Virus record (IMG/VR): IMGVR_UViG_3300025131_000181
Location: 1-36,244 of that record
Reading direction: 5' to 3' (one strand)
From: a virus
DNA length: 36,244 nt
Of this stretch, positions 98-27,546 are shown piece by piece. The number at the start of each line of letters is the position of its first letter. Positions within the stretch are counted from its first letter, which is position 1. The notes beneath the pieces are model-generated. The model was not told the DNA's origin and did not search any database. It saw only the letters and a list, made by a program, of their open reading frames with translations. The translations under genes and the position numbers were made by a program.

Positions 98-643
98 ATG
101 AACATGAAAAAAACAAAGTTGGAAGAATTAGTTTTCGATGATGAGAACGCAAGACGGCACAGTGAAGAAAATAAGTTTGCAGTTAAAACTTCACTTGAAA
201 AGTACGGTCAGCAAAAACCAATTGTCATAAACGAAGACAAGAAAATCATTGCCGGAAACTGCACCGCGGTTGTTGCAAAAGAACTTGGTTGGAAAACCGT
301 TGATACGGTTACAACAAAACTAACAGCAGAGCAAGCAACCGCGTATGCAATTGCAGACAATAGAACGAGTGAGTTGGGTGAATGGGAAGGCGATGTGTTG
401 AAGTTCTTGGTTGAGTCAAATGAAATAGATTTGGAATCAATCGGTTTTGACGTTGATTCTTTTAACATTGCGACAGGTGAAGCAGATTGGGGTGGTACTG
501 ATATTGACCAAACGCCTGAGAATGTTATAGAACCAACTTCAAAAATAATTGTTACTTGTGAAATGAACATGAAGTTAGAAGTAGAAGAAGCAATTAAAAA
601 ACTAATTTACAAAAACAAGTGGGAAGATGTAGAAATTAAGTAA
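98..643 (+). CDS. ParB/sulfiredoxin-fold domain protein
   Basis: N-terminal ParB-like nuclease/Srx domain, about residues 5-100. Visible hallmarks are the early K-x-E-E-L-V-F-D-D-E-N-A-R-R segment, a P-I-V-I-N strand, the I-I-A-G-N turn followed by a helix ending in LGW, and the A-Y-A-I-A-D-N-R-T motif typical of phage ParB-like proteins. The C-terminal part (about 60 residues) is not recognised. I prefer ATG 98 over ATG 74 because AAGGAG at 85-90 lies 7 nt upstream of it, whereas 74 has no ribosome site. The stop overlaps the start of the DpdA-like gene. ParB-like domains in phages often sit beside DNA-modifying enzymes, and the bacterial dpd DNA-modification island includes a ParB/DndB-like protein (DpdB). 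A role in target selection or NTP-driven assistance to DpdA is inference. Confidence 0.8.
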   Translation: MNMKKTKLEELVFDDENARRHSEENKFAVKTSLEKYGQQKPIVINEDKKIIAGNCTAVVAKELGWKTVDTVTTKLTAEQATAYAIADNRTSELGEWEGDVLKFLVESNEIDLESIGFDVDSFNIATGEADWGGTDIDQTPENVIEPTSKIIVTCEMNMKLEVEEAIKKLIYKNKWEDVEIK

Positions 644-1662
644 TGATTAGTTTTCCAAATGTTTTATGTTCTTATGCTTATTGCTACAACAGTAGGCACA
701 TGACAAGTATGCTTTGCAAATTAACAAGTGAAGCAAACACAAGGTTGCTGATTGACTCTGGTGCGTACACCGCTTTTAAATTAGGCAAACCTGTTGTTCT
801 TCAGAATTATATTGACTATATTAAATTGTTAGATGCTCATGGTGGAGCGTGGAACACAATTCAACTCGATGTTATTGGCAACAGTGAAAAAACAAAGCGA
901 AACTTAGACATCATGTATGAGCAAGGAGTTACTCCAATGCCTGTGCTGACTGTAGATATGAAGTCTAGTGAGTCATTAAACTTAATCGAATACAACAAGT
1001 ATATCTGCATAGCGGGTGGTCAAAAGTTTTGGTCTGGTGCAAAGGATTGGCAATGGCGAAGAACTTTAGATGTTGAGAAGTTTACAAACGGCAAAGCGTT
1101 GGCTCACTTTCTTGCCTTTGTAAGAATACCCGACTTATACAAGTTGCCAGTTAATTCAGCAGATGCTTCAACGTGGTTAGCAGGACAGCAGTATTCAAGA
1201 ATTGCTTGTTATGTGTCTGGTGGGAAAATGACAGGCGGTACTTTTTATCACCAGTTAAGACACTTGCCTAAGAATAAACTTAATAAAGATTTGATAAGGC
1301 ACTTAAACAGAGACAAGATAACAAAAACTCAATGGCAAGATAGAGAGTTAATGTCTGTTGGTGCGGGTTCATATTGTTCTTTTAAAACAGTTGCTAGTTT
1401 TGTTGCCTTGTGCAATGATGCAAGAAAGAGAGGCAAGAAAATCTTTTTAGTTGTATCTGGATGTGGTGACTTAAATACACTTGCAAGTGCTTGTATAAAC
1501 TCTGATGACAAAGGGTACTTGAATTGGACAAAAGCAAAAAAAATGTTTTTTGAATTAAAAGCATTGCGGAAAAAAAGTCAAACCGATTGGGAGTCAATGA
1601 TAGTTTCAATTATAAATAAACTTAATAAAGGAATAGAAATTGAAAACACGAATAGTAGTTAG
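643..1662 (+). CDS. dpdA: DpdA-like DNA guanine transglycosylase
   Basis: Probable TGT-fold (beta/alpha barrel) enzyme that swaps guanine in DNA for a 7-deazaguanine base. Visible signatures: an N-terminal strand, then D38-S-G-A-Y, comparable to the base-binding DSGA segment of DpdA and tRNA-guanine transglycosylases; Q74-L-D-V at the end of a barrel strand; and P-M-P-V-L-T on the next. A later C-terminal V-S-G-C-G-D lies where barrel strands continue. At 339 residues it is in the short phage DpdA size range, with no PUA domain as in archaeal ArcTGT. Its location four to nine genes upstream of queD, queE and folE supports the call. The start overlaps the preceding stop and the 3' end overlaps the next gene by 23 bp. 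The exact catalytic Asp cannot be fixed without alignment. Confidence 0.75.
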   Translation: MISFPNVLCSYAYCYNSRHMTSMLCKLTSEANTRLLIDSGAYTAFKLGKPVVLQNYIDYIKLLDAHGGAWNTIQLDVIGNSEKTKRNLDIMYEQGVTPMPVLTVDMKSSESLNLIEYNKYICIAGGQKFWSGAKDWQWRRTLDVEKFTNGKALAHFLAFVRIPDLYKLPVNSADASTWLAGQQYSRIACYVSGGKMTGGTFYHQLRHLPKNKLNKDLIRHLNRDKITKTQWQDRELMSVGAGSYCSFKTVASFVALCNDARKRGKKIFLVVSGCGDLNTLASACINSDDKGYLNWTKAKKMFFELKALRKKSQTDWESMIVSIINKLNKGIEIENTNSS

Positions 1663-2005
1663 AACAAGTCATCAAGGTTTTCACAGATGGAAGAATGCAG
1701 TTGGAACTTTTGACTGGTTGCTCATGAGAAAGCATCGGCACATATTTAACTTTGAACTAGAAGTTGAGGTGACTGACGATGATAGGCAAATAGAGTTTTT
1801 TGACTTTAAAGATAAAGTAGATACTGCACTTCGAGTTTTGTATCAAGATAAAGACAACCCATTTTACTTGGACTTTAAAAGTTGCAGTTGTGAACACATT
1901 GTAAAACAATTAGCAAAACAATTAAAAATGGGTTCAGAGTTAAAGTCAATTTCTGTTTTTGAAGATACAGAAAATGGTGCAAAGGTTTTGTTTGATGATA
2001 ACTAA
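1640..2005 (+). CDS. Divergent T-fold protein, QueD/6-PTPS-like
   Basis: Short protein (121 aa) with the layout of the 6-pyruvoyl-tetrahydropterin synthase/QueD family: H15 in a G-F-H-R-W turn, then H32-R-H34 placed like the zinc HxH pair of QueD, a strand ending in a V-T-D-D-D-R turn, a C-E-H-I-V-K-Q-L-A helix, and a final acidic strand with E-D-T-E-N-G. The catalytic Cys that normally precedes HxH is absent (W-L-L-M-R there), so it is probably not a simple second QueD. It begins at TTG 1640, served by AAAGGA at 1627-1632 (7-nt spacing), and overlaps the DpdA-like gene. A canonical QueD follows at 4525, so this paralogue may act on another pterin or 7-deazaguanine intermediate, or assist DpdA. 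Function is inferred only. Confidence 0.55.
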   Translation: MKTRIVVRTSHQGFHRWKNAVGTFDWLLMRKHRHIFNFELEVEVTDDDRQIEFFDFKDKVDTALRVLYQDKDNPFYLDFKSCSCEHIVKQLAKQLKMGSELKSISVFEDTENGAKVLFDDN

Positions 2006-2432
2006 AAAGATATTTTTTGGTATTGAATGTGAAGGCAAGTGGAATGGGTTGCCGACTATTTTTATTCCTTGCAGTTGCATGAAAACAAAGTTGCCTAAAG
2101 ATATGCCATTGCATTTGTATATTGGTGCGGGATGCGACTTAGTAAAAACACAAACTCAACTTGATAGTGCAATTGAACTTGTTGAAAAATACAACGATAA
2201 ACTTTTTACAATTGAAATAGATATAACTGCAAAGTTAAAGATACCAACTTGTTTGAACTCTCGGAGCGTAAGGTTGCTTTTTAACTTTAATCCCGAACTA
2301 AAAGATTTATCGCATATTTTAACTTGGACTAATTCTGAAGTAAAAATAACAAGCAAAGAATCACTTGCAGTTTACTCAGCCCCGCAATTTTTAGAAATCA
2401 ATTATTTGGAGGACTACTTGCATGAAGTTTAG
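1995..2432 (+). CDS. Unrecognised protein of the deazaguanine cluster
   Basis: I do not recognise this 145-residue protein. It has no signal peptide or membrane segment. It starts with an alternating hydrophobic strand (F-F-G-I-E-C-E-G) followed by a G-L-P-T-I-F-I-P-C strand. This pair loosely recalls the opening S-L-Q-G-E-G...T-x-F-V-R of QueE, but no Fe-S cysteine motif follows. The rest is predicted alternating strands and short helices with a charged C terminus. ATG 1995 is preferred over an upstream in-frame codon because AAAGG at 1981-1985 precedes it at normal distance. The start overlaps the previous stop by 11 nt and its end overlaps the glycosyltransferase start by 11 nt, so it is translated within the modification operon. 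A structural partner of DpdA or of the T-fold protein is possible. Confidence 0.65.
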   Translation: MITKKIFFGIECEGKWNGLPTIFIPCSCMKTKLPKDMPLHLYIGAGCDLVKTQTQLDSAIELVEKYNDKLFTIEIDITAKLKIPTCLNSRSVRLLFNFNPELKDLSHILTWTNSEVKITSKESLAVYSAPQFLEINYLEDYLHEV

Positions 2433-3600
2433 AAAATTATTTTATATGGGTCTCGAACCATACGAAGGTAGATATACCTTGCAGTTGCAAAAATGGAGTG
2501 AACAAGCGTTTGCTAAACTTGGTATCGACTATGTAATTGTTGAAGGCAAAACTATTGACGATACGAAAGCAATATCTGTTGGGCAAGTTTTAGACGCACA
2601 TGGTCGGTCGTTTTTTGGCATGAGCCAACTTATGAACTTGGTGCAACTAATGAAGTCGGGCGAATGCTCGGGTGAAGATGTGGTTTTTTTTGAAGATATG
2701 TTTCAAGCAGGAATGGAATCTTTGCCTTACATACTGTGCCAAATACCAGAAAACCAACGACCTACAATTTACTTAAGGTGTTTGGCTCAGTCAATAGACC
2801 CAGACGACTTTGTTCATGTTTGGGGAATGAGTAGATGGATGAGTTGTTATGAGCAGATGTGCAATGAGATTCCAAATGTGAACATACTGGCAACCAGCGA
2901 AGAAATGGTTGCGAATATGAAAGTTGCTAATTGGTCTGCTCCTATATTTAACATTGCAGGACTTAGTTTTGGTAAAGACGAAGTTATTTCTAGGGTTAAG
3001 TCCGTCAAAAAATGGAGCGAGAGAAAAGATAGAGTTTATTTTTCTGCAAGGTTTGACCAAGAGAAGCAACCAGATTTTTATATGGATTTAGTTTTGCAAG
3101 TCAAAAACATTATGCCAGATGTTGAGTTTGCAATTTTCAGTGGTGGCGATTTGAAAAGCAATAACCAAAAATATGTAGACAGGGCTTTAACTATGCAAGA
3201 CGAAGGCTTGCTTTCGATGTACGAAAACCTTTCTAAGAACGAGTATTATGAGTTAGTGAATGATAGTAAAGTCCTTTTCAATTGTGCTTTGCAAGATTGG
3301 GTAAGCAACACGGTTTCAGAAGCAGATGCTCTTGGTTGCAATGTTGTGTTTCCTGCATATCGTTCTTTCCCAGAAACTTTTGCAAATGACCACAGGAGAA
3401 TGTATGTTCCTTGGTCTATGCAAGATGCAGTTAATAAAGTCGTTGCTTCATTGAAAAATGCAAGTAATGACATTGGAAAGATTAGCGATTGGACAAACTG
3501 CACTATTGAAAGAATGGTTGACATAATGCAAGGCGAAGGCGAGCAATGGGCGAGGAACAGTAATCGTTATAGGGATAACATACAAAAGGCAAAGTTTTGA
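2422..3600 (+). CDS. GT-B fold glycosyltransferase (GT4-like)
   Basis: A 392-residue protein with the two-domain pattern of GT-B glycosyltransferases. The C-terminal Rossmann half opens near residue 200 with R-V-Y-F-S-A-R-F-D-Q-E-K-Q-P. It continues with a helix, a strand I-M-P-D-V-E-F-A-I-F-S-G-G-D, and the nucleotide-sugar-binding stretch Y-E-L-V-N-D-S-K-V, then D-W-V-S-N-T-V-S-E-A-D-A-L-G-C and V-F-P-A-Y-R-S-F-P-E. The E-A-x-A-x-G segment is where family 4 enzymes bind the donor phosphates. There is no membrane segment. A GGAGG (2408-2412) precedes ATG 2422. It overlaps the GalE-like gene (TTGA). Donor and acceptor are unknown. Its place between dpdA and queD suggests that the acceptor is the modified base in phage DNA, or its precursor. 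Confidence 0.75.
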   Translation: MKFRKLFYMGLEPYEGRYTLQLQKWSEQAFAKLGIDYVIVEGKTIDDTKAISVGQVLDAHGRSFFGMSQLMNLVQLMKSGECSGEDVVFFEDMFQAGMESLPYILCQIPENQRPTIYLRCLAQSIDPDDFVHVWGMSRWMSCYEQMCNEIPNVNILATSEEMVANMKVANWSAPIFNIAGLSFGKDEVISRVKSVKKWSERKDRVYFSARFDQEKQPDFYMDLVLQVKNIMPDVEFAIFSGGDLKSNNQKYVDRALTMQDEGLLSMYENLSKNEYYELVNDSKVLFNCALQDWVSNTVSEADALGCNVVFPAYRSFPETFANDHRRMYVPWSMQDAVNKVVASLKNASNDIGKISDWTNCTIERMVDIMQGEGEQWARNSNRYRDNIQKAKF

Positions 3601-4532
3601 AAGTTTTAGTAACAGGAGCAAGTGGTTATATTGGTTCGCAAACTTGCAAGTGTCTTGTTAAGAATAACCATACTGTGACTGCAAATGACTTGGAAGATAT
3701 AACTCATGATTATTTTTCAACAAAAAAAATCTGTAACTATAAAGATTTGAAAGTTAAAGATGTAGATTGTTTGGTTCATATTGGAGCGACAAGTCTTGTA
3801 ACTCCAAGTCTTATCGACCCGCGACAGTATTGGGAAAACAATGTTAGCAACACAGTTGAGTTATTAAAAAATTGCAACAAAAAAACCAAAGTTATATTTG
3901 CTTCGAGTGCAGGAGTATATGGCGAACCAAGTAATGGAGTTTGTTTTGAAGATATGGAGTTTAATCCTTGTAGCCCTTATGGTTGGAGCAAGCGAATGGT
4001 TGAACTAATACTTGAAAGTTATTACTCGGCTTATAACCAATCGAGTATTAGTTTGCGTTTTTTTAATGTTGCAGGAGCAGACACCGAAAGTGAAATGGGT
4101 CAAAAAAGTAATGCGAGTCATATTATCGCGAAGGCAATGGAAAGTGCAATTTCAAAAAAGCAGTTTACATTGTTTGGCAATGACTACGATACTCCGGATG
4201 GAACTTGTGTTAGGGATTATGTTCATGTAGAAGATATTTCTCAAGGTATCCTAGATAGTATTGCTATGTTGCAAAATAAAGTAGGTGCTTATCAAATTAA
4301 CTTGGGCGGTAAATCTTGCTACAGTAATTATGAAATACTTGAAGCAATTACTAGTCAAACAGGATTAAAAATCAACTTAAAAATAAGCGAGTCAAGACAA
4401 GGCGAGCCAAGTGTTCTTATTGCTGATACAGCAAAAGCAAAGCAACTATTAAATTGGAAACCTTGTCACTGCTTAAACTCAATTATTAAAACAGCGTATC
4501 TTTGGTATCAAAAAGGAAACAAAAATGATTAG
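3597..4532 (+). CDS. UDP-glucose 4-epimerase-like SDR enzyme
   Basis: Extended short-chain dehydrogenase of the GalE type. NAD-binding G7-x-x-G10-x-x-G13 sits at the N terminus with D31 at the end of the second strand. Catalytic Y128-x-x-x-K132 lies in S-P-Y-G-W-S-K, and A-S-S-A-G-V-Y-G-E precedes it. The later R-F-F-N-V-A-G-A-D, D-G-T-C-V-R-D-Y-V-H-V-E-D-I and the E-x-R-Q-G-E-P type C terminus are typical of UDP-hexose 4-epimerases (311 aa, slightly short for the family). It would interconvert UDP-glucose and UDP-galactose or related UDP-sugars. The start is TTG 3597 with AAAAGG 6 nt upstream, overlapping the glycosyltransferase stop as TTGA. It probably supplies the sugar donor to that glycosyltransferase. 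The exact substrate is not determined. Confidence 0.82.
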   Translation: MKVLVTGASGYIGSQTCKCLVKNNHTVTANDLEDITHDYFSTKKICNYKDLKVKDVDCLVHIGATSLVTPSLIDPRQYWENNVSNTVELLKNCNKKTKVIFASSAGVYGEPSNGVCFEDMEFNPCSPYGWSKRMVELILESYYSAYNQSSISLRFFNVAGADTESEMGQKSNASHIIAKAMESAISKKQFTLFGNDYDTPDGTCVRDYVHVEDISQGILDSIAMLQNKVGAYQINLGGKSCYSNYEILEAITSQTGLKINLKISESRQGEPSVLIADTAKAKQLLNWKPCHCLNSIIKTAYLWYQKGNKND

Positions 4533-4941
4533 TTGCACAAGGAAACTTTGGTTTTGTGCAGGGCATAGAGTAAAAGGACATGAAGGGAAATGCAGACACC
4601 TTCACGGTCATAACTACATTGTCTACATAACAGCACAAGCAAGTTTAGATTCGATTGGTAGAGTTATTGACTTTAGTGTATTGAAGCAAGAGTTTGGTTC
4701 GTTTATTGATGACAACTTCGACCACGGTTTCCTTGTTTGGGAAGATGACAAGGAAGTGATTGATGTACTAAAGAATATGGGTGAGCAAAAGATTTTTGTA
4801 ATGCCAACAAACCCAACAGCAGAAAACATTGCACAATTCTTGTTAGATAACAGTGGGGATATTCTTGACAGCAAAGGAGTTGAAGTTACGATGATAAAAG
4901 TATACGAAACTGAAAACTGTTTTGCAGTAGCAACCAGATGA
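4525..4941 (+). CDS. queD: 6-carboxytetrahydropterin synthase QueD
   Basis: T-fold enzyme converting dihydroneopterin triphosphate to 6-carboxytetrahydropterin, the second step of 7-deazaguanine synthesis. Zinc ligands H14, H27 and H29 are present in A-G-H-R and L-H-G-H. The catalytic Cys is C23 in G-K-C-R-H. The downstream signatures are G-R-V-I-D-F, the N-F-D-H base, N-P-T-A-E-N and the final V-Y-E-T-E strand. The 138-aa length is normal. ATG 4525 has AAAAGGA upstream and overlaps the epimerase stop by 8 bp. Together with QueE and FolE in the same chain it completes the route from GTP to CDG. Confidence 0.93.
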   Translation: MISCTRKLWFCAGHRVKGHEGKCRHLHGHNYIVYITAQASLDSIGRVIDFSVLKQEFGSFIDDNFDHGFLVWEDDKEVIDVLKNMGEQKIFVMPTNPTAENIAQFLLDNSGDILDSKGVEVTMIKVYETENCFAVATR

Positions 4942-5387
4942 CTTTCAAAACAGATTTGAAATATGGCAAGGATGCGGAGTGCCTTATTCTGAAAAGAATA
5001 CAAAAAAAATATCCACTTGCCTTTATGATTGAAGGGAAGTTCAAAGCGTTCGACTTATTCGTACCCGAGATAGAAAAAGGTGTAGAAATTAAGTCAGACA
5101 GACAAGCGGAACAAACTGGCAACGTATTTATTGAAATAGAATGCAACCATGAGTATTCGGGGATTCAAACTACAAAAGCAACGTGGTATGTGTACCAAAC
5201 CAAAAGCAGAATGTTTTGGGTAACAACAGAAGCGATAAGGCAATACTTGATTAGTAAAGCAAAAGAATTGCGGTTGTTTAACAATACTCCTAAAGGCGAG
5301 TATTCTGCGGTGCGTGGTTACTTGGTGCCAATAGATGACTTTGAAGAACTTTCATTCCATGTAGATTCTGAAGGAGAAAAACTATGA
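4938..5387 (+). CDS. PD-(D/E)XK nuclease-like protein
   Basis: 149-residue protein with the restriction-endonuclease-like core: an N-terminal helix carrying G-K-D-A-E14, D39 in K-A-F-D-L-F-V-P, then E50-I-K52 after a G-V strand. This E-D-ExK layout is the metal-binding signature of the fold. A following E-I-E-C-N segment and a W-Y-V-Y-Q-T strand fit other members in which the chain continues as sheet. No DNA-recognition domain is apparent. It overlaps queD by ATGA and queE by ATGA, so it belongs to the modification operon. Possible roles are degrading unmodified host DNA (self DNA being protected by the modified base) or recombination/repair; neither can be chosen from sequence. Confidence 0.7.
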   Translation: MTFKTDLKYGKDAECLILKRIQKKYPLAFMIEGKFKAFDLFVPEIEKGVEIKSDRQAEQTGNVFIEIECNHEYSGIQTTKATWYVYQTKSRMFWVTTEAIRQYLISKAKELRLFNNTPKGEYSAVRGYLVPIDDFEELSFHVDSEGEKL

Positions 5388-6019
5388 AAGGCTACTGGGT
5401 AAACGAAATCTTTTACTCGTTGCAAGGTGAAGGCGTAAGGTCTGGTACGGCTAATGTATTCGTGAGGTTCAAGGGTTGCAACTTAGAGTGTGCAATGGAA
5501 GAAGGCGAAAAGTCAATAGGTGGGTTTGACTGTGATACCGAGTTTGAGTCAGGTATTAAGATGTCACCTCATGACTTGGTTGATGCTTGCGAAGCAATGG
5601 CTGTAAAGCAAGCGAATAGTAACCATGTTCAGTTCAGTGTAATTTTTACAGGTGGTGAACCTGCAATCCAATTGGACAAAGAATTAGTTTCAATGTTCAA
5701 AGACAATGGTTGGTATACAGCAATAGAAACAAATGGAAGCATGGACGTTTCAGATTTAGGTTTAGATTGGATTACAGTTTCGCCAAAGGTTGCGGAGCAT
5801 TGCGTAAGACAACTAACAGCAGACGAAGTTAAATATGTAAGAGGCAACCTGCAAGGAATACCTAAACCAAAATGCAAGGCGAAGAATAAAGTTATATCCC
5901 CTGCGTTTAATGGTTTAGAAAAAAACCAAGATGCTGTTCTTTGGTGCATCGAATTAGTAAAGCAAAATCCAGATTGGCAACTAAGTGTGCAAGACCATAA
6001 GTTATGGAGAATAAGGTAA
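5384..6019 (+). CDS. queE: 7-carboxy-7-deazaguanine synthase QueE
   Basis: Radical SAM enzyme that rearranges 6-carboxytetrahydropterin to CDG. N-terminal N-E-I-F-Y-S-L-Q-G-E-G and V-F-V-R-F-K-G-C-N are diagnostic, and T-G-G-E-P binds SAM. Cluster cysteines appear as C32, C36 and C50 (C-x3-C-x13-C), followed by D-T-E-F. This differs from both the ordinary CxxxCxxC spacing and the C-x14-C-x2-C form of E. coli QueE, so one iron ligand is uncertain. I-E-T-N-G and the V-S-P-K strand are present. ATG 5384 overlaps the nuclease stop, and the stop adjoins folE. Length (211 aa) is normal. Confidence 0.92.
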   Translation: MKGYWVNEIFYSLQGEGVRSGTANVFVRFKGCNLECAMEEGEKSIGGFDCDTEFESGIKMSPHDLVDACEAMAVKQANSNHVQFSVIFTGGEPAIQLDKELVSMFKDNGWYTAIETNGSMDVSDLGLDWITVSPKVAEHCVRQLTADEVKYVRGNLQGIPKPKCKAKNKVISPAFNGLEKNQDAVLWCIELVKQNPDWQLSVQDHKLWRIR

Positions 6020-6573
6020 TGAGTATAGGCGAAGAAGGTATTAGAGATTTACTTATTGAGATTGGGCAAGACCCAGACAGAGAAGGATTGATAGACACGC
6101 CAAAGCGTGTAGTAAAAGCAATGAAAGAAATGACCATAGGTTACAACCAAAGTCCAAAAGAAATACTAAGTAGACAATTTGAAGGTGATAACTACGATGA
6201 CTTAGTTATTGTGAGAGGTATTAGGTTTGCTTCTTTATGTGAACACCACCTCTTGCCTTTTGTTGGAACTTGCGGAGTTGGTTATTTGCCAAGAAGAAAA
6301 GTTGTTGGCTTGTCAAAGTTACCGCGACTTGTCGAGTGCTATTCTAAACGGTTACAACTACAAGAAAGAATGACTAGGCAGATAGCCAACGCGGTAATGA
6401 TTCACTTAGTGCCAAGAGGCGTTGGAGTTTATGTGCAAGCGACCCATCAGTGTATGGCTTGCAGAGGTGCAAGGCAACCCGATGCAGACATGGTAACAAC
6501 AACTGTACTTGGAGAGATGCGGGAAAACCCTTCGCTAAAGTCAGAGTTCATACAAGCGGTGCATCATGGGTAG
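6019..6573 (+). CDS. folE: GTP cyclohydrolase I (FolE)
   Basis: Converts GTP to dihydroneopterin triphosphate, the entry step for 7-deazaguanine (and folate) synthesis. In the numbering from ATG 6019, zinc residues are C74, H77 and C145, in C-E-H-H-L-L-P-F and H-Q-C-M-A-C-R-G. E-G-L-I-D-T-P-K-R-V and V-G-L-S-K-L-P-R complete the family signature. About 185 aa, like the catalytic core of bacterial FolE. I prefer ATG 6019 (TAATG overlap with queE; GGAG at 6006-6009) over ATG 6004, which lacks a ribosome site but would add five residues. It is the last gene of the CDG block and probably boosts flux from the infected cell's GTP pool. Confidence 0.94.
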   Translation: MSIGEEGIRDLLIEIGQDPDREGLIDTPKRVVKAMKEMTIGYNQSPKEILSRQFEGDNYDDLVIVRGIRFASLCEHHLLPFVGTCGVGYLPRRKVVGLSKLPRLVECYSKRLQLQERMTRQIANAVMIHLVPRGVGVYVQATHQCMACRGARQPDADMVTTTVLGEMRENPSLKSEFIQAVHHG

Positions 6574-22982: not shown

Positions 22983-24371
22983 ATGGCAACAACTACAACA
23001 ATCTACGCGGATACTGACGCTAACCTGCGGGAGAATGCGCCCGATACAAATTACAGTGGCAACTCGGTATTTAGAATCGGTCAATATACTGGCTATCGTA
23101 GACACGCTGTACTGCACTTTGACGTATCGGCGTACAGTGTCCCTTCAGATATTGTTAGTGCAAAACTATATTTAACTGCTTCTGGCGATACAGGTCCTAC
23201 TAGAACGATGAAGATTGCACGACTAAACCAAGATTACGTTGAGGCAGAGGTAACGTGGAATGTTGCAAGTACAGGGGTATCTTGGACGGGTGGTGCAGGT
23301 GGTGAAGGGAATGGCGCATTTACAGAGCCAACTTATTCAATAAGTGTTGGCGATGGCGAAGGTGACCAAGAAGTTGATATTAAAGAATTGGTAGTTGATG
23401 CAATAAATAGAAGGGATGACGAGTTGTGGCTTATTATTTGCTTTGACCCTACGGATACTGCAACGGAAGCGGGAAGAAGTTATTTTTACCCTAGCGAATA
23501 CGGAACGGCATCATACCGACCAAAGATTGCAGTAACAGTTGCAAGAAGGGTCGTGTGGGATGGTGCATACGATGGTGACGCAGAGAACGGTCTTAATTGG
23601 GGTCTAGCAGGAACTGCACCAACAACCAGCGACTATGTACTATTTAATTCTGGCAGCGTTTCTGTGACATCGGGGAGCATTTCTTGTCATTCGTTGTTTA
23701 TTAGTAAAGATTACACAGGTGAGATTTTAGCAACAGGTGGCGGTGCGATTAATTTAGTTAGTTCAACTTCCGATACTGGCAATGTTGCGGTTATCAAAAA
23801 GAAAATTGGCAGGATTCATTTAAGCGAATATGATGATTATAACAGGACGGTTTACATCTTGGATACACCAAGCGATGAGTGTACTTTTGAAACAAGAGGG
23901 GGAAACAGTTTCGATGTATTTGTGGACAAAACTACTGGCATGTTGAATGTGGTTGGCGATAGCAACCTGATAGTTGGGTTTAACAAAAACAAAAAACGAG
24001 TAACAACATCGGGAACAGTAACAGATATTATTGCGTGTGGTAAAACGGTGTACTTAGATAATGGGTGTAACGATTTAACTATTTGTAATAATGGAAAAGT
24101 TGTATGCAACTCTGGTTCAGTAAATGATATAACGATTGGCAAAGGTATATTTTCTCAAAAGTCAATTGCAGTAAATGATGTCGTAATGTACGGCGGTGAG
24201 TTTAACTTTAAAGATAACGAGAATGCAGTATCAGACACAAATGATGTAACACTATACCAAGGGTCTAAGTTTATTGCGAAAAGCAATTCTGTCGATTGGA
24301 CTCCGCAAGGTGATTTAATTATATGGGGCGGGAACTTTACAGTTGATTCCGCACAGATTACAGTGGTGTAG
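22983..24371 (+). CDS. DNRLRE-type and solenoid fibre protein
   Basis: 462 aa. Residues 1 to about 185 match a DNRLRE-type domain: I-Y-A-D-T-D-A-N-L-R-E, Y-R-R-H-A-V-L-H-F-D-V-S-A, then A-K-L-Y-L-T and T-W-N-V-A-S. A second W-D-G...E-N-G-L-N-W...T-S-D-Y-V-L-F module follows near 190-215, then a solenoid-like string of short strands to the end. DNRLRE-type domains are carbohydrate- or matrix-linked modules in bacterial surface proteins, so a host-attachment fibre is likely. Close relation in architecture to its upstream neighbour suggests duplication or shared chassis. Confidence 0.7.
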   Translation: MATTTTIYADTDANLRENAPDTNYSGNSVFRIGQYTGYRRHAVLHFDVSAYSVPSDIVSAKLYLTASGDTGPTRTMKIARLNQDYVEAEVTWNVASTGVSWTGGAGGEGNGAFTEPTYSISVGDGEGDQEVDIKELVVDAINRRDDELWLIICFDPTDTATEAGRSYFYPSEYGTASYRPKIAVTVARRVVWDGAYDGDAENGLNWGLAGTAPTTSDYVLFNSGSVSVTSGSISCHSLFISKDYTGEILATGGGAINLVSSTSDTGNVAVIKKKIGRIHLSEYDDYNRTVYILDTPSDECTFETRGGNSFDVFVDKTTGMLNVVGDSNLIVGFNKNKKRVTTSGTVTDIIACGKTVYLDNGCNDLTICNNGKVVCNSGSVNDITIGKGIFSQKSIAVNDVVMYGGEFNFKDNENAVSDTNDVTLYQGSKFIAKSNSVDWTPQGDLIIWGGNFTVDSAQITVV

Positions 24372-24374
24372 CAA

Positions 24375-25151
24375 ATGACTAATTACGCAAAGTTTGCAGC
24401 CATCAGTTGTACACATTGCCCGTACCAAAGCGAACGTGCAATTGACAAACTACTTGAAGAATTAAAAGGCAGAAAACTTACGCACTTCATCCACTGTGGG
24501 GATGTGGTCGATGCAGAAGCGGCAAGTGTTCACAATGATAACGAACCAGTTGGGCATACGTTAATTGAAGAATATAAAGTTGCGGCACACATGCTTTCGA
24601 GAATCCGCAAGGCATTAGAACCTGACACTAAATTAGTGTTGTTAGATGGCAACCATGACGATAATATCCAACGCCCCGATTCACGCAGGATAAAATATGA
24701 CCTGCGTGAACTTTGCAACCCAAGAAAGATTGAAGGCGTAGCAGATGAATATAAACTTTGGCAGCACGTTCCGTACCGTCATGGTGCAAGAGGTTGTTAC
24801 CAACTTGGTGCGGTGATTTTCAGTCATGGTTTTTCAACTGGTGCAAACAGCGATGAGTTAGAAGCCATACAATTGGCGATGGCGTGTGGCGGTCATGCGC
24901 ACAGGTTGATTGTTAGAGGGCATACACACCGCCCTGTACCGCCCACACAGTGCAAGCGTAGTGCAAGGGTCAAACTACCGTGGCACTATTGCAATGTTGG
25001 CTATATGGCGTTTGATGACCGCCCCGCATATACTCACCGCTTCGACATCCAACAATGGGGAAGGGCTTGTTTAGTTGGGGAAACCAAAATAGGACGGGCA
25101 GACCGAGTTGGAAAAGATGCGTGGAAAGCACAACTAATACCACTCGATTAA
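24375..25151 (+). CDS. Calcineurin-like metallophosphoesterase
   Basis: 258 aa. Motifs: S-C12-T-H14, G-D43-V-V-D, G-N-H-D (92-95), H151 in F-S-H-G-F, and G-H-T-H (182-185). The first motif normally reads D-x-H; here Cys replaces the Asp, leaving other ligands intact. Substrate unknown: a cyclic nucleotide, DNA or phosphoester are all possible. It is the last gene before a terminator and so is transcribed with the tail genes. Confidence 0.85.
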   Translation: MTNYAKFAAISCTHCPYQSERAIDKLLEELKGRKLTHFIHCGDVVDAEAASVHNDNEPVGHTLIEEYKVAAHMLSRIRKALEPDTKLVLLDGNHDDNIQRPDSRRIKYDLRELCNPRKIEGVADEYKLWQHVPYRHGARGCYQLGAVIFSHGFSTGANSDELEAIQLAMACGGHAHRLIVRGHTHRPVPPTQCKRSARVKLPWHYCNVGYMAFDDRPAYTHRFDIQQWGRACLVGETKIGRADRVGKDAWKAQLIPLD

Positions 25152-25190: not shown

Positions 25191-25264
25191 CGTTTCATTC
25201 TTAAGTTGCGACAGTTTACGCGCTAGGTGCAACAACTTATACCTTATATGTATTTGGCTTGTTC

Positions 25265-25273
25265 TGTTATAAT
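25265..25273 (+). promoter_or_regulatory. Extended -10 promoter
   Basis: TGTTATAAT at 25265-25273 is a perfect extended -10 (TG-N-TATAAT). No good -35 lies at the expected distance, which is acceptable for extended -10 promoters. Transcription would start near 25280 and drive the replication operon. Confidence 0.65.
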
Positions 25274-25295
25274 GCACCGATATATCGAAAGGAAC

Positions 25296-25371
25296 GGACT
25301 CCAATCGTCAAACGAGATAGCCAATGTATTGGCAACGAGGGGAGTCCAAAAGTTAAAAGGAGTTGCCAATG
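25296..25371 (+). promoter_or_regulatory. Structured 5' leader with start-codon pairing
   Basis: GGACTCC (25296-25302) pairs with GGAGTCC (25341-25347), enclosing TCGT-CAA-ACGA (25305-25315) and GCCAAT-GT-ATTGGC (25320-25333), a three-way junction. ATTGGCAAC (25328-25336) is also an exact 9-nt complement of GTTGCCAAT (25362-25370), which covers the last SD base and start codon of the next gene. ACTCC (25298-25302) can also pair with GGAGT of the SD (25359-25363). The two folds exclude each other, so this looks like a translational switch. Confidence 0.6.
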
Positions 25372-26214
25372 GCACTCAAAGCAAAACAGCCGAAAGCGAA
25401 GGACGCTCGGCTAAAATTGTTTATGTATGGTGATGCAGGGGTGGGTAAAACTACTGCCTCTTGCGTACTACCTGCACCTTACATAATTGATACTGAACAA
25501 GGTACAAACAATTACTCGGAACTCATAACCAAGGCAGGTGGTGCTGTGTTCCAAACAACTTCAATGGATGAAATTATTGAAGAAGTAAGACAGTTGCGTA
25601 AAGAAAAGCATGATTACAAAACTTTGGTAATAGATTCATCCACACCCGCATACTTTGACTTGATTGAAAAGTGTGAGGAAAAAGTTGGCTCAGAGTTTGG
25701 CAGACACTATGGTGAAGCAAACAAATACATGAGGCGGTTAATTAACTTGCTCATGGATTTAGATATGAATGTTATCTTCACAGCACATAGTAAAGTTGTG
25801 TATGGCGATGATATGAAAAAGATGGGCACAACCTTTGATGGTTGGAAGCGTTTGGATTATATCTTCGACCTTGTTTTAGAATTGCGAAAGATTACACCAA
25901 CAAACAGGAAGGCAAAAGTTGTGAAGACACGGCTCGATGGCTTCCCAGATGGCGATGTATTCGATTGGACTTTTGATGCGTTGTCTAAACGATATGAAGT
26001 TAAAGAAATGGAACGTGAAACTGTTGCTGTTAAAGTTGCGACAAAGAAACAGATTGAACAGATAACAAAGATTGCCGAGAACATCAATGAAGGTAATGAG
26101 TTTGTTTCTGAATGTATTAAAAGAGCAAGAGTAGGCGTCTTAGAAGATATGCCACAAGACAAGGCAGACAAAATGATTGAAGCAATGAAAAAGAAAATAG
26201 GAGCAATAGAATGA
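25369..26214 (+). CDS. Sak4-like RecA-fold ATPase
   Basis: P-loop ATPase of the AAA_24/Sak4 type found in phage recombination modules. Walker A G21-D-A-G-V-G-K-T28 follows a short L-K-L-F-M-Y strand. I-I-D-T-E-Q-G is the next strand, T-L-V-I-D-S-S the Walker B, and N-V-I-F-T-A-H the sensor strand. The final 70 residues are charged helices. Sak4 proteins anneal or load on SSB-coated DNA, and an SSB-like gene follows directly. ATG 25369 is used, as AAAAGGAG at 25355-25362 gives 6-nt spacing; the TTG at 25363 touches the SD. Confidence 0.85.
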   Translation: MALKAKQPKAKDARLKLFMYGDAGVGKTTASCVLPAPYIIDTEQGTNNYSELITKAGGAVFQTTSMDEIIEEVRQLRKEKHDYKTLVIDSSTPAYFDLIEKCEEKVGSEFGRHYGEANKYMRRLINLLMDLDMNVIFTAHSKVVYGDDMKKMGTTFDGWKRLDYIFDLVLELRKITPTNRKAKVVKTRLDGFPDGDVFDWTFDALSKRYEVKEMERETVAVKVATKKQIEQITKIAENINEGNEFVSECIKRARVGVLEDMPQDKADKMIEAMKKKIGAIE

Positions 26215-26636
26215 TTGAGTATAACCCAGAAGATGCAACTGAAGCAAATGACTTTCAACCTTTTCCTGTTGGCGAGTATGAGGCAGAAGTTATTGAGGCA
26301 GACCAAATGGTTTCAAAAGCAGGCAATGATATGATACGCTTAAATCTTGTTGTTACTAATGACAAGGGTGGCACTACAAGAATTTATGACTACATAGTTA
26401 TTCCTAATACCTTGTTCAAACTTAAGTCTATTTGCAGGTGTTTAAGTATTGAGTTTGATGGTACACTTGATGAGCAGATTTTAGTAGACCAAAGAATGAA
26501 AGTTAAGGTTGGGATAGAAAAAGGTGATGACAAGTATCCCGCAAAGAATAGAATTGATAGATACATTGATGGCATAGGTTCAAACAGTACACCTGTTGAG
26601 ACTCCCACTATACCGAAAGATGATATACCATTCTAA
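26211..26636 (+). CDS. Single-strand DNA-binding-like protein
   Basis: 141 aa of DUF669 type. F-P-V-G-E-Y-E-A-E-V-I-E-A-D and N-D-M-I-R-L-N-L-V-V give an OB-like sheet, and T-L-F-K-L-K-S-I-C-R-C-L is the helix usual in this family. It ends with D-D-I-P-F, the acidic tip by which SSBs recruit partners, after a flexible P/T linker. Overlaps the Sak4-like gene by ATGA; the pair is a common phage recombination/replication unit. Confidence 0.82.
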   Translation: MIEYNPEDATEANDFQPFPVGEYEAEVIEADQMVSKAGNDMIRLNLVVTNDKGGTTRIYDYIVIPNTLFKLKSICRCLSIEFDGTLDEQILVDQRMKVKVGIEKGDDKYPAKNRIDRYIDGIGSNSTPVETPTIPKDDIPF

Positions 26637-26661
26637 AACTGAGTACCAAGTTATCCTTTCG

Positions 26662-26698
26662 CTTGTGGGGTGGGAGAAATCCTGCCCTGCAAGTTTTT
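26662..26698 (+). terminator. Terminator or attenuator
   Basis: 13-bp stem including four G-T wobbles, from CTTG to CAAG, with an AGAAAT loop (26662-26693) and T5 after it. It lies in the gap between the SSB-like gene and the winged-helix gene, which has no evident promoter of its own, so partial termination is likely. Confidence 0.65.
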
Positions 26699-26727
26699 GG
26701 ATACGGCAAAGATGAAAGGACTTATTG

Positions 26728-27546
26728 ATGCCGAAGAAAAAAACAAACAAGATGCCAGCGATATTATTTTATACTGGCGATTGGTTGAAAGACCCCGCCA
26801 TAAGATGTTGCAGTTTAGAAGCAAGAGGATTGTGGATTGAGATGTTGTGTTTAATGTATGAGTCACCACAACGAGGGTACCTATCTCTCGCAAACGGAGT
26901 TGGCGTGTCTGACGTTCAGTTGGCTAGGATGGTCGGAGCATCGATTGAAGAAGTCAAACGCATCACAGGCGAACTGAAGGCTTGTGGCGTGTTCTCAGAA
27001 ACCAAGGACGGAATTAAGTATTCAAGGCGTATGGTTTCAGATGAATTAGTTAGAGCAGATAAAAGTAAGGCAGGGAAGAAAGGAATGGAAAGCCGTTATA
27101 GCAGAAACGATAACAAGCCACCTAACAGAGAGGTAACAGTTGTTGAATATGAATATGAAGATGAATCTGTAATTGATTCTTCTAATAATTATTTAGTAAA
27201 TAGAAAGTCAAGAGAAAATAATAAAGCAATTGACTTTGTATTAAATGCAATACCTAAAAACCGTTTGCAGAATCCAAGCAAGACACGGATGCAGATTCGC
27301 AGGGTGTTAGATGTTGCAATTAGTAATGGTAAAGATGAGATGGATTGTGCGACATTGCTTGCCGAGCGTTTTGGTTTGTACTACAAGTCGCAAGAAGGTA
27401 GTGGTGAGTATTTTAAGTCACCGCACAAATGGTTAGAAGAAGATTGTCATTTAGTAGACCCAAGCGTTTGGGACTCACGAAAAAAACCCCAACCCACAAG
27501 TGGTTGGGATTCAATTAAGAAAGGAAATATAAGCAATGAATTATAA
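26728..27546 (+). CDS. Winged-helix replication protein
   Basis: Phage replication-initiation type protein, 272 aa. M-P-A-I-L-F-Y-T-G-D-W-L-K-D-P-A-I-R near the start with R-G-L-W-I-E-M-L-C-L-M is the standard opening of DUF1376/replisome-organiser-like proteins, followed by a winged helix (V-Q-L-A-R-M-V-G...E-V-K-R-I-T-G-E-L). The basic linker and the second domain (I-P-K-N-R-L...) resemble loader-binding C termini. ATG 26728 has AAAGGA at 26715-26720. Likely binds origin DNA. Confidence 0.8.
   Translation: MPKKKTNKMPAILFYTGDWLKDPAIRCCSLEARGLWIEMLCLMYESPQRGYLSLANGVGVSDVQLARMVGASIEEVKRITGELKACGVFSETKDGIKYSRRMVSDELVRADKSKAGKKGMESRYSRNDNKPPNREVTVVEYEYEDESVIDSSNNYLVNRKSRENNKAIDFVLNAIPKNRLQNPSKTRMQIRRVLDVAISNGKDEMDCATLLAERFGLYYKSQEGSGEYFKSPHKWLEEDCHLVDPSVWDSRKKPQPTSGWDSIKKGNISNEL

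Follow-up and report, generated by a model that had tools for sequence, protein, structure and literature searches.

What does the short stretch of DNA between a phage promoter and the first gene of a recombination operon do once it has been transcribed? The question is raised by positions 25265-25371 of virus record IMGVR_UViG_3300025131_000181, whose 36,244 bases were analysed as a whole and are called the window below. Terminase, portal, capsid and tape-measure genes are present in the window, which is therefore a tailed phage. The leader has a calcineurin-like phosphoesterase gene (24375-25151) on its 5' side and sak4 on its 3' side (Table 1), and a preliminary description had portrayed it as a switch between mutually exclusive RNA folds. 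Levels of phage SSB and annealase need balancing against single-stranded DNA, and RNA-level control of these proteins is known mainly from T4. A covarying leader of a Sak4-SSB pair in an unrelated, uncultured lineage offers a short, testable RNA with which to ask whether autoregulation evolved repeatedly.

Table 1. Coordinates of the features discussed in the text (positions in the window).
Feature	Position	Strand	Basis or remark
Extended -10 promoter TGTTATAAT, without recognisable -35 hexamer	25265..25273	+	Sequence
Single-stranded 5' tail ATCGAAAGGAAC	25284..25295	+	Identical in 3/3 phages
Element A, irregular hairpin	25296..25347	+	Minimum-energy fold in 3/3 phages
P1 of element A, GGACTCC/GGAGTCC	25296-25302/25341-25347		
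P2 of element A, UCGU/ACGA	25305-25308/25335-25338		AA/GG internal loop separates P1 and P2
P3 of element A, GCCAA/UUGGC	25320-25324/25329-25333		11x1 internal loop CAAACGAGAUA/A separates P2 and P3
Internal-loop/P2 strand AATCGTCAAACGAGATA	25303..25319	+	Identical in 3/3 phages
Hairpin B at translation start, GAGU-(U bulge)-GCC-AAU-GGC-ACUC	25360..25377	+	-6.3 kcal/mol
Possible third hairpin AGCCGA/TCGGCT inside sak4 coding sequence	25388..25412	+	Weaker claim
sak4, RecA-like single-strand annealing ATPase, first gene behind the leader	25369..26214	+	PHROG 124 / Pfam AAA_24
ssb, DUF669 OB-fold single-stranded DNA-binding protein	26211..26636	+	PHROG 378, Pfam DUF669
Strong intrinsic-terminator-like hairpin, 15 pairs and U tract	26661-26694		19 nt 5' of rep SD
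GAAAGGA copies	25287, 26714, 27519, 29398, 29662, 30125, 30375, 30890, 31314, 31558, 33368, 33571		
Queuine tRNA-ribosyltransferase-like gene	643-1662		
6-pyruvoyl tetrahydropterin synthase gene	4525-4941		
Radical-SAM gene	5384-6019		Weak match
GTP cyclohydrolase I gene	6004-6573		

The sak4 product matched the Sak4-like family PHROG 124 (E 2.8e-29) and Pfam AAA_24 (E 1.5e-25). The DUF669 protein encoded by the following gene has an acidic C-terminus (DDIPF) and is predicted to be an OB-fold SSB; the closest solved structure to its predicted model (pLDDT 77.7) was the ssDNA-binding protein PrgE (E 1.3e-6). In HK620, the DUF669 protein adjoining sak4 is a true SSB that works together with Sak4 (PMC5928155). 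Elsewhere in the window, genes of a 7-deazaguanine DNA-modification route were found at 643-6573 and, given these genes, the phage DNA may be modified. The protein encoded at 22983-24371, directly 5' of the phosphoesterase gene, gave CBM96 carbohydrate-binding and disaggregatase-repeat matches, and the phosphoesterase gene itself was conserved at 80-86% among relatives.

Searching with the Sak4 protein returned L001, which is an identical copy, L002 at 96% identity, and distant relatives; a pattern search with the leader core added L011, whose Sak4 is 72% identical. L035 is the L011 contig in the sense direction and counts with it as one leader version, not two. Three distinct versions (window, L002 and L011/L035), each lying 5' of sak4, are thus the leader sequences on which all alignment and covariation results given here rest. 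The leader was absent from Sak4 relatives at 58-65% identity (L036-L040), several of which have a promoter-like extended -10 and stems of their own 5' of sak4.

Folding indicated that the leader RNA is made of two elements. The first, element A, ends 21 nt upstream of the AUG. Its outer stem had been recognised correctly, GGACTCC being complementary to GGAGTCC, and the two arms proposed inside it (TCGT-CAA-ACGA at 25305-25315 and GCCAA/TTGGC) are present as letters. The three-way junction that these arms were thought to form was not confirmed: in each of the three phages an extended hairpin was more stable by about 3 kcal/mol. In the extended hairpin UCGU pairs with the second ACGA, whereas the junction uses the first one instead; because both ACGAG copies are invariant, UCGU may exchange between them.

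The second element, hairpin B, went unnoticed in the earlier reading of the sequence. It pairs the GAG of the Shine-Dalgarno (SD) sequence (GGAG, 25359-25362), its loop contains the first two bases (A and U) of the AUG, and its stability is about -6.3 kcal/mol in all three phages; by fold energy, the sak4 start region ranks 4th among 43 start regions of the window. Analogous AGUGC...AUG...GCACU stems of similar stability were found in L037, L038 and L039, and no start-codon hairpin like B in L036 or L055.

Substitutions in the three leaders respected this structure. P1 changed from C-G to A-U in L035 with pairing kept; in P3, a C-G pair corresponded to G-C and another to U-A, both two-sided changes, one A-U pair became G-U, and none was broken. 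P2 was invariant in all three sequences and is therefore uninformative about which ACGA copy pairs with UCGU. In hairpin B, the U25363-A25374 pair was replaced by A-U in L002, a two-sided change in which 25374 is the silent third base of an Ala codon, and the sole change in L035 fell in the bulge. The possible hairpin inside the sak4 coding sequence contained one two-sided change (G-C to A-U, in L035) and no broken pair. Covariation in related phages, to which the preliminary description had looked for a check, was therefore found in P1, P3 and B.

Statistical controls pointed the same way. At most 2 of 200 dinucleotide shuffles folded as well as the leader in each of the three phages; the corresponding z-scores ranged from -2.5 to -2.9, and a longer segment of the window reached -4.3. 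The alignment kept 100% of the pairs and contained five two-sided changes, four in A and B and one in the coding-region hairpin; column shuffles matched this pair retention and covariation once in 500 and slid controls never did. When the observed substitutions were placed at random, zero broken pairs together with four two-sided ones did not occur in 200,000 trials. We have little doubt that the fold of the leader is real. Its compensatory changes and its recurrence 5' of sak4 in three contigs mark it as a conserved structured cis-regulatory RNA, and the covariation makes cis-control of sak4-ssb likely; the earlier description was upheld insofar as a recombination operon (Sak4-type AAA ATPase and DUF669/OB-fold SSB) has a structured leader next to its promoter, and the stems covary. 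The leader probably controls the amount of recombination proteins made.

Searches beyond these phages returned little. Four sequence patterns run across viral contigs recovered only the same three phages, and a covariance model run against 43 and 32 sequences only the same three leaders. The motif was not found with this model in 294 bacterial genomes from the phylum of L010, a search run without a positive control, nor in public phage records; a DNA similarity search gave no phage match, and plasmids yielded only a 26-nt chance match. A weak covariance-model match in L071 (761-840, E 0.057) was set aside, as three of its pairs are broken and it looks like chance. With three contigs and none found elsewhere, the distribution is therefore narrow. 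The fold matches no catalogued RNA family: none of 4227 Rfam families, riboswitches included, reached the gathering threshold in the window, and the best match below it, to a Bacillus-plasmid RNA, scored 16.3 bits against 31. A Planctomycetota host was considered since L010 sits in a Phycisphaerales MAG, and gained little support, close Sak4 and phosphoesterase relatives being rare there.

Upstream of the stems, the perfect extended -10 reported earlier is present and recurs in L002 (TGTTACAAT) and L035 (TGATATAAT) despite diverged upstream DNA; judging from its position, transcription is expected to start at about 25280. The 5' tail contains the SD sequence GAAAGGA, but no start codon at SD distance. 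GAAAGGA is the canonical SD of this phage and precedes the start codons of about 10 other genes in the window. A leader peptide (MYWQRGESKS), and with it a leader-peptide attenuator, was rejected because L035 lacks a start codon in that frame, which reads ATG TAT TGG CAA CGA... TAA in the window and ATG TTT TAC CAA... TAA in L002. A longer open reading frame across the leader (25227-25433) was also discarded: a 2-nt deletion disrupts its frame in L002, as does an insertion of 1 nt in L035.

The unpaired positions suggested what the structure could be for. Between the window and L035, 58 of 65 columns in the tail and element A agreed and the seven differences all fell in P1, P3 or the P3 loop; at fourfold-degenerate sites of sak4, 33 of 71 agreed (46%). 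Invariance of the tail and internal-loop bases against such a background is therefore as expected for a bound surface, and AATCGTCAAACGAGATA plus AACGAGG (25334-25340) is presumed to be the recognition surface.

We tentatively favour, at somewhat short of even confidence, a translational operator of the sak4-ssb mRNA in which B limits ribosomes and A is read by a protein. An RNA begun at the extended -10 promoter would fold into element A, with its invariant internal loop, and then into hairpin B, which takes in part of the SD and the start codon. B would hold translation at a modest level by limiting ribosome entry, and a protein bound to the invariant loop of A could spread over the start region, or stabilise it, and shut translation off. 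By analogy, the likeliest binder would be the operon's own ssDNA-binding protein, SSB or Sak4; produced in excess of phage ssDNA, it would repress its own mRNA as T4 gp32 and gp43 do. The autogenous operator is the leading idea because of the DUF669 SSB of HK620 and the precedents of T4 and RB69, where gp32 and gp43 repress their own mRNAs via an upstream folded element and the ribosome-binding site (RBS) (PMC535899, PMC3014915). Consistent with it, the leader sits directly between a conserved promoter and the RBS, every stem substitution keeps pairing, the tail and loop bases are as constant as a bound surface would be, B occludes SD and AUG (with B-like hairpins in L037, L038 and L039), and the operon encodes two ssDNA-binding proteins. 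Among the three functions suggested at the outset, protein autoregulation thus stays the most plausible; thermosensor and riboswitch found no positive evidence.

Several observations weigh against the operator. The binding partner is only putative and element A is known from three phage sequences. B-like hairpins occur in relatives without A, and A and B therefore need not act jointly. The start region is folded, unlike the unstructured A+U-rich operator of T4 gene 32. Finally, the loop has stayed constant while the SSB diverged (57-67% identity), a pattern compatible with a conserved host ligand as well.

An unlikely but respectable competitor is a leader that binds no ligand, with A as a 5' stabiliser or spacer and the unpaired GAAAGGA tail as a ribosome standby site, loading 30S subunits close to the folded start site B. 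The tail does carry a canonical SD without a start codon, and B is of the modest stability that standby binding can surmount. L055 uses the promoter-proximal CGAAAGGAGG directly as SD, and in L037 and L038 the same CGAAAGGA is followed by another stem; the arrangement looks like a structured insert placed between two SDs. A stabiliser needs pairing alone, however, and would leave the invariant internal-loop bases of A unexplained. In L037 and L038 (2380-2500 in each), the different sak4 leader has a stem TAGTTTTGG/CCAAAACTA 3' of ACGAAAGGA; structured sak4 leaders may therefore have more than one origin.

A put-like antiterminator is distinctly less probable. Nascent A would bind the host RNA polymerase and allow read-through of the intrinsic terminator predicted between ssb and rep, linking the recombination genes to the replication genes. 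Like HK022 putL (about 70 nt, just 3' of PL; PMC9378689), A opens the transcript, and every rep transcript must read through the terminator-like hairpin because this hairpin comes so shortly before the rep SD. Its U tract is U5-U6 in the window, L002 and L011, the three phages with A, and L036 and L039 lack both A and a good U tract. This match is a hint only, because it is confined to a single clade and hence to one event. Moreover, the best fold of A is one irregular hairpin, favoured by 3 kcal/mol over the two-arm junction, whereas put consists of two stem-loops; the termination at 26694 is itself predicted, and there was no Rfam match of any kind.

The ssb-rep junction (26637-26735) has alternative pairings of its own. 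CCTTTC (26655-26660) has two alternative partners, GGATA 3' of the terminator-like hairpin and the rep SD GAAAGGA (26714-26720), giving 5-9 bp after the GC-rich hairpin versus 8-9 bp with the rep SD, G-U pairs included. Both pairings were possible in all six phages examined (window, L002, L011, L036, L038 and L039) and both tracked sequence changes, ACC with GGT in L039 and ATTCC with GGAAT in L038. The predicted best fold was the hairpin-flank state in the window, L002 and L011 and the rep-SD state in L036, L038 and L039. This junction is a better candidate for a two-state element than the sak4 leader. The ssb stop codon lies shortly upstream, and translational coupling would therefore be a natural reading of the junction. 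The rep start region (26705-26732) may itself form a hairpin with the SD in the loop, with stems GGC...GCC in the window clade, GACAC...GTGTC in L036 and TGTCA...TGACA in L038. A scan with the rep protein added, among the matches listed, distant rep relatives.

Improbable, in our judgement, is a riboswitch with an aptamer made of the internal loops of A, where a bound metabolite would alter access to the start site B. Covarying stems enclosing invariant internal loops are the usual look of an aptamer, and with its 7-deazaguanine precursor genes the phage could have a nucleotide-like ligand available. On the other hand, the leader matches no Rfam riboswitch family, the motif was confined to these phages when public phage records, other covariance-searched loci and the 294 sampled bacterial genomes were considered, and no conserved alternative pairing connects A with B.

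The switch originally proposed is very improbable. In that model, the junction alternates with a state in which ATTGGCAAC (25328-25336) leaves P3 and pairs over 9 nt with GTTGCCAAT (25362-25370) at the start codon. The complementarity is perfect in the window, and GTTGCCAAT does contain the A and U of the AUG (25369-25371), but not the whole codon. ATTGGCAAC is replaced by TTTACCAAC in L002 and TTTGCCAAC in L035, where the start region reads GATGCCAAT and GTAGCCAAT, respectively; L002 keeps 5 of the 9 pairs and L035 keeps 7, the lost ones are uncompensated, and the competing hairpin retains all its pairs. Enforcing the pairing in the window gave a best fold of -21.6 versus -29.9 kcal/mol, a cost of 8 kcal/mol that rose to about 23-27 in the relatives. 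The second proposed contact, ACTCC (25298-25302) with GGAGT (25359-25363) at the SD, is complementary in the window but loses one pair in each relative. Among contiguous helices of at least 5 bp possible in all three sequences, none joins A to the start site; those returned were P1 and P3 together with two helices in the coding region, namely the stem described above and a weak A-U-rich one. Neither pairing being kept in relatives, the argument for exclusive states describes a coincidence in one phage and is refuted as a conserved mechanism. Perfect 9-nt complementarity to a start codon can thus be coincidental while the real structure sits elsewhere.

That the leader is a feature of the DNA (a dyad-symmetric operator or a replication-origin hairpin) is hardly credible: P1 is an inverted repeat in DNA too, but stem letters vary freely if pairing is kept, unlike in a sequence-specific operator, and the element has the promoter on one side and the RBS on the other, with a second covarying hairpin that includes the SD coming after it.

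It is possible, though we regard it as doubtful, that A represents a new class of phage cis-RNA whose loops are read by a protein or by RNA polymerase and which couples Sak4-SSB production to replication. If so, A would be the first known autogenous operator for a Sak4-SSB pair, or a put-like antiterminator outside lambdoid phages.

Four known systems resemble the leader in part. HK022 putRNA is likewise a structured RNA opening an early phage transcript, about 70 nt long and with bulges that matter (PMC9378689); it has two stem-loops where A has one in its best fold, and antitermination is only putative here. The HK620 module shares a sak4 gene adjoining that of a DUF669-type SSB whose C-terminal tail is acidic, and differs in that PMC5928155 describes no structured leader and makes no mention of mRNA, RNA or autoregulation. 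The gene 43 operator of T4 and RB69 comprises, about 40 nt 5' of the start codon, a hairpin whose loop bases are invariant, and in addition sequence that extends to the RBS (PMC3014915). It resembles A in having an upstream hairpin with invariant loop bases, but that hairpin is a simple one of 16-18 bases, whereas A has 52 nt and two internal loops, and gene 43 encodes a DNA polymerase, another protein family than Sak4 or SSB. Gene 32 of T4 and RB69 encodes a phage ssDNA-binding protein, and its mRNA likewise has a folded element 5' of the RBS. There is no sequence relation to the leader of the window, where binding is only putative, and T4 has a pseudoknot about 67 nt upstream of an unstructured A+U-rich start, compared with an irregular hairpin that ends 21 nt upstream and a start folded into hairpin B. 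Between related phages, the structure of the gene 32 operator has been kept while its sequence diverged (PMC535899, PMC3014915).
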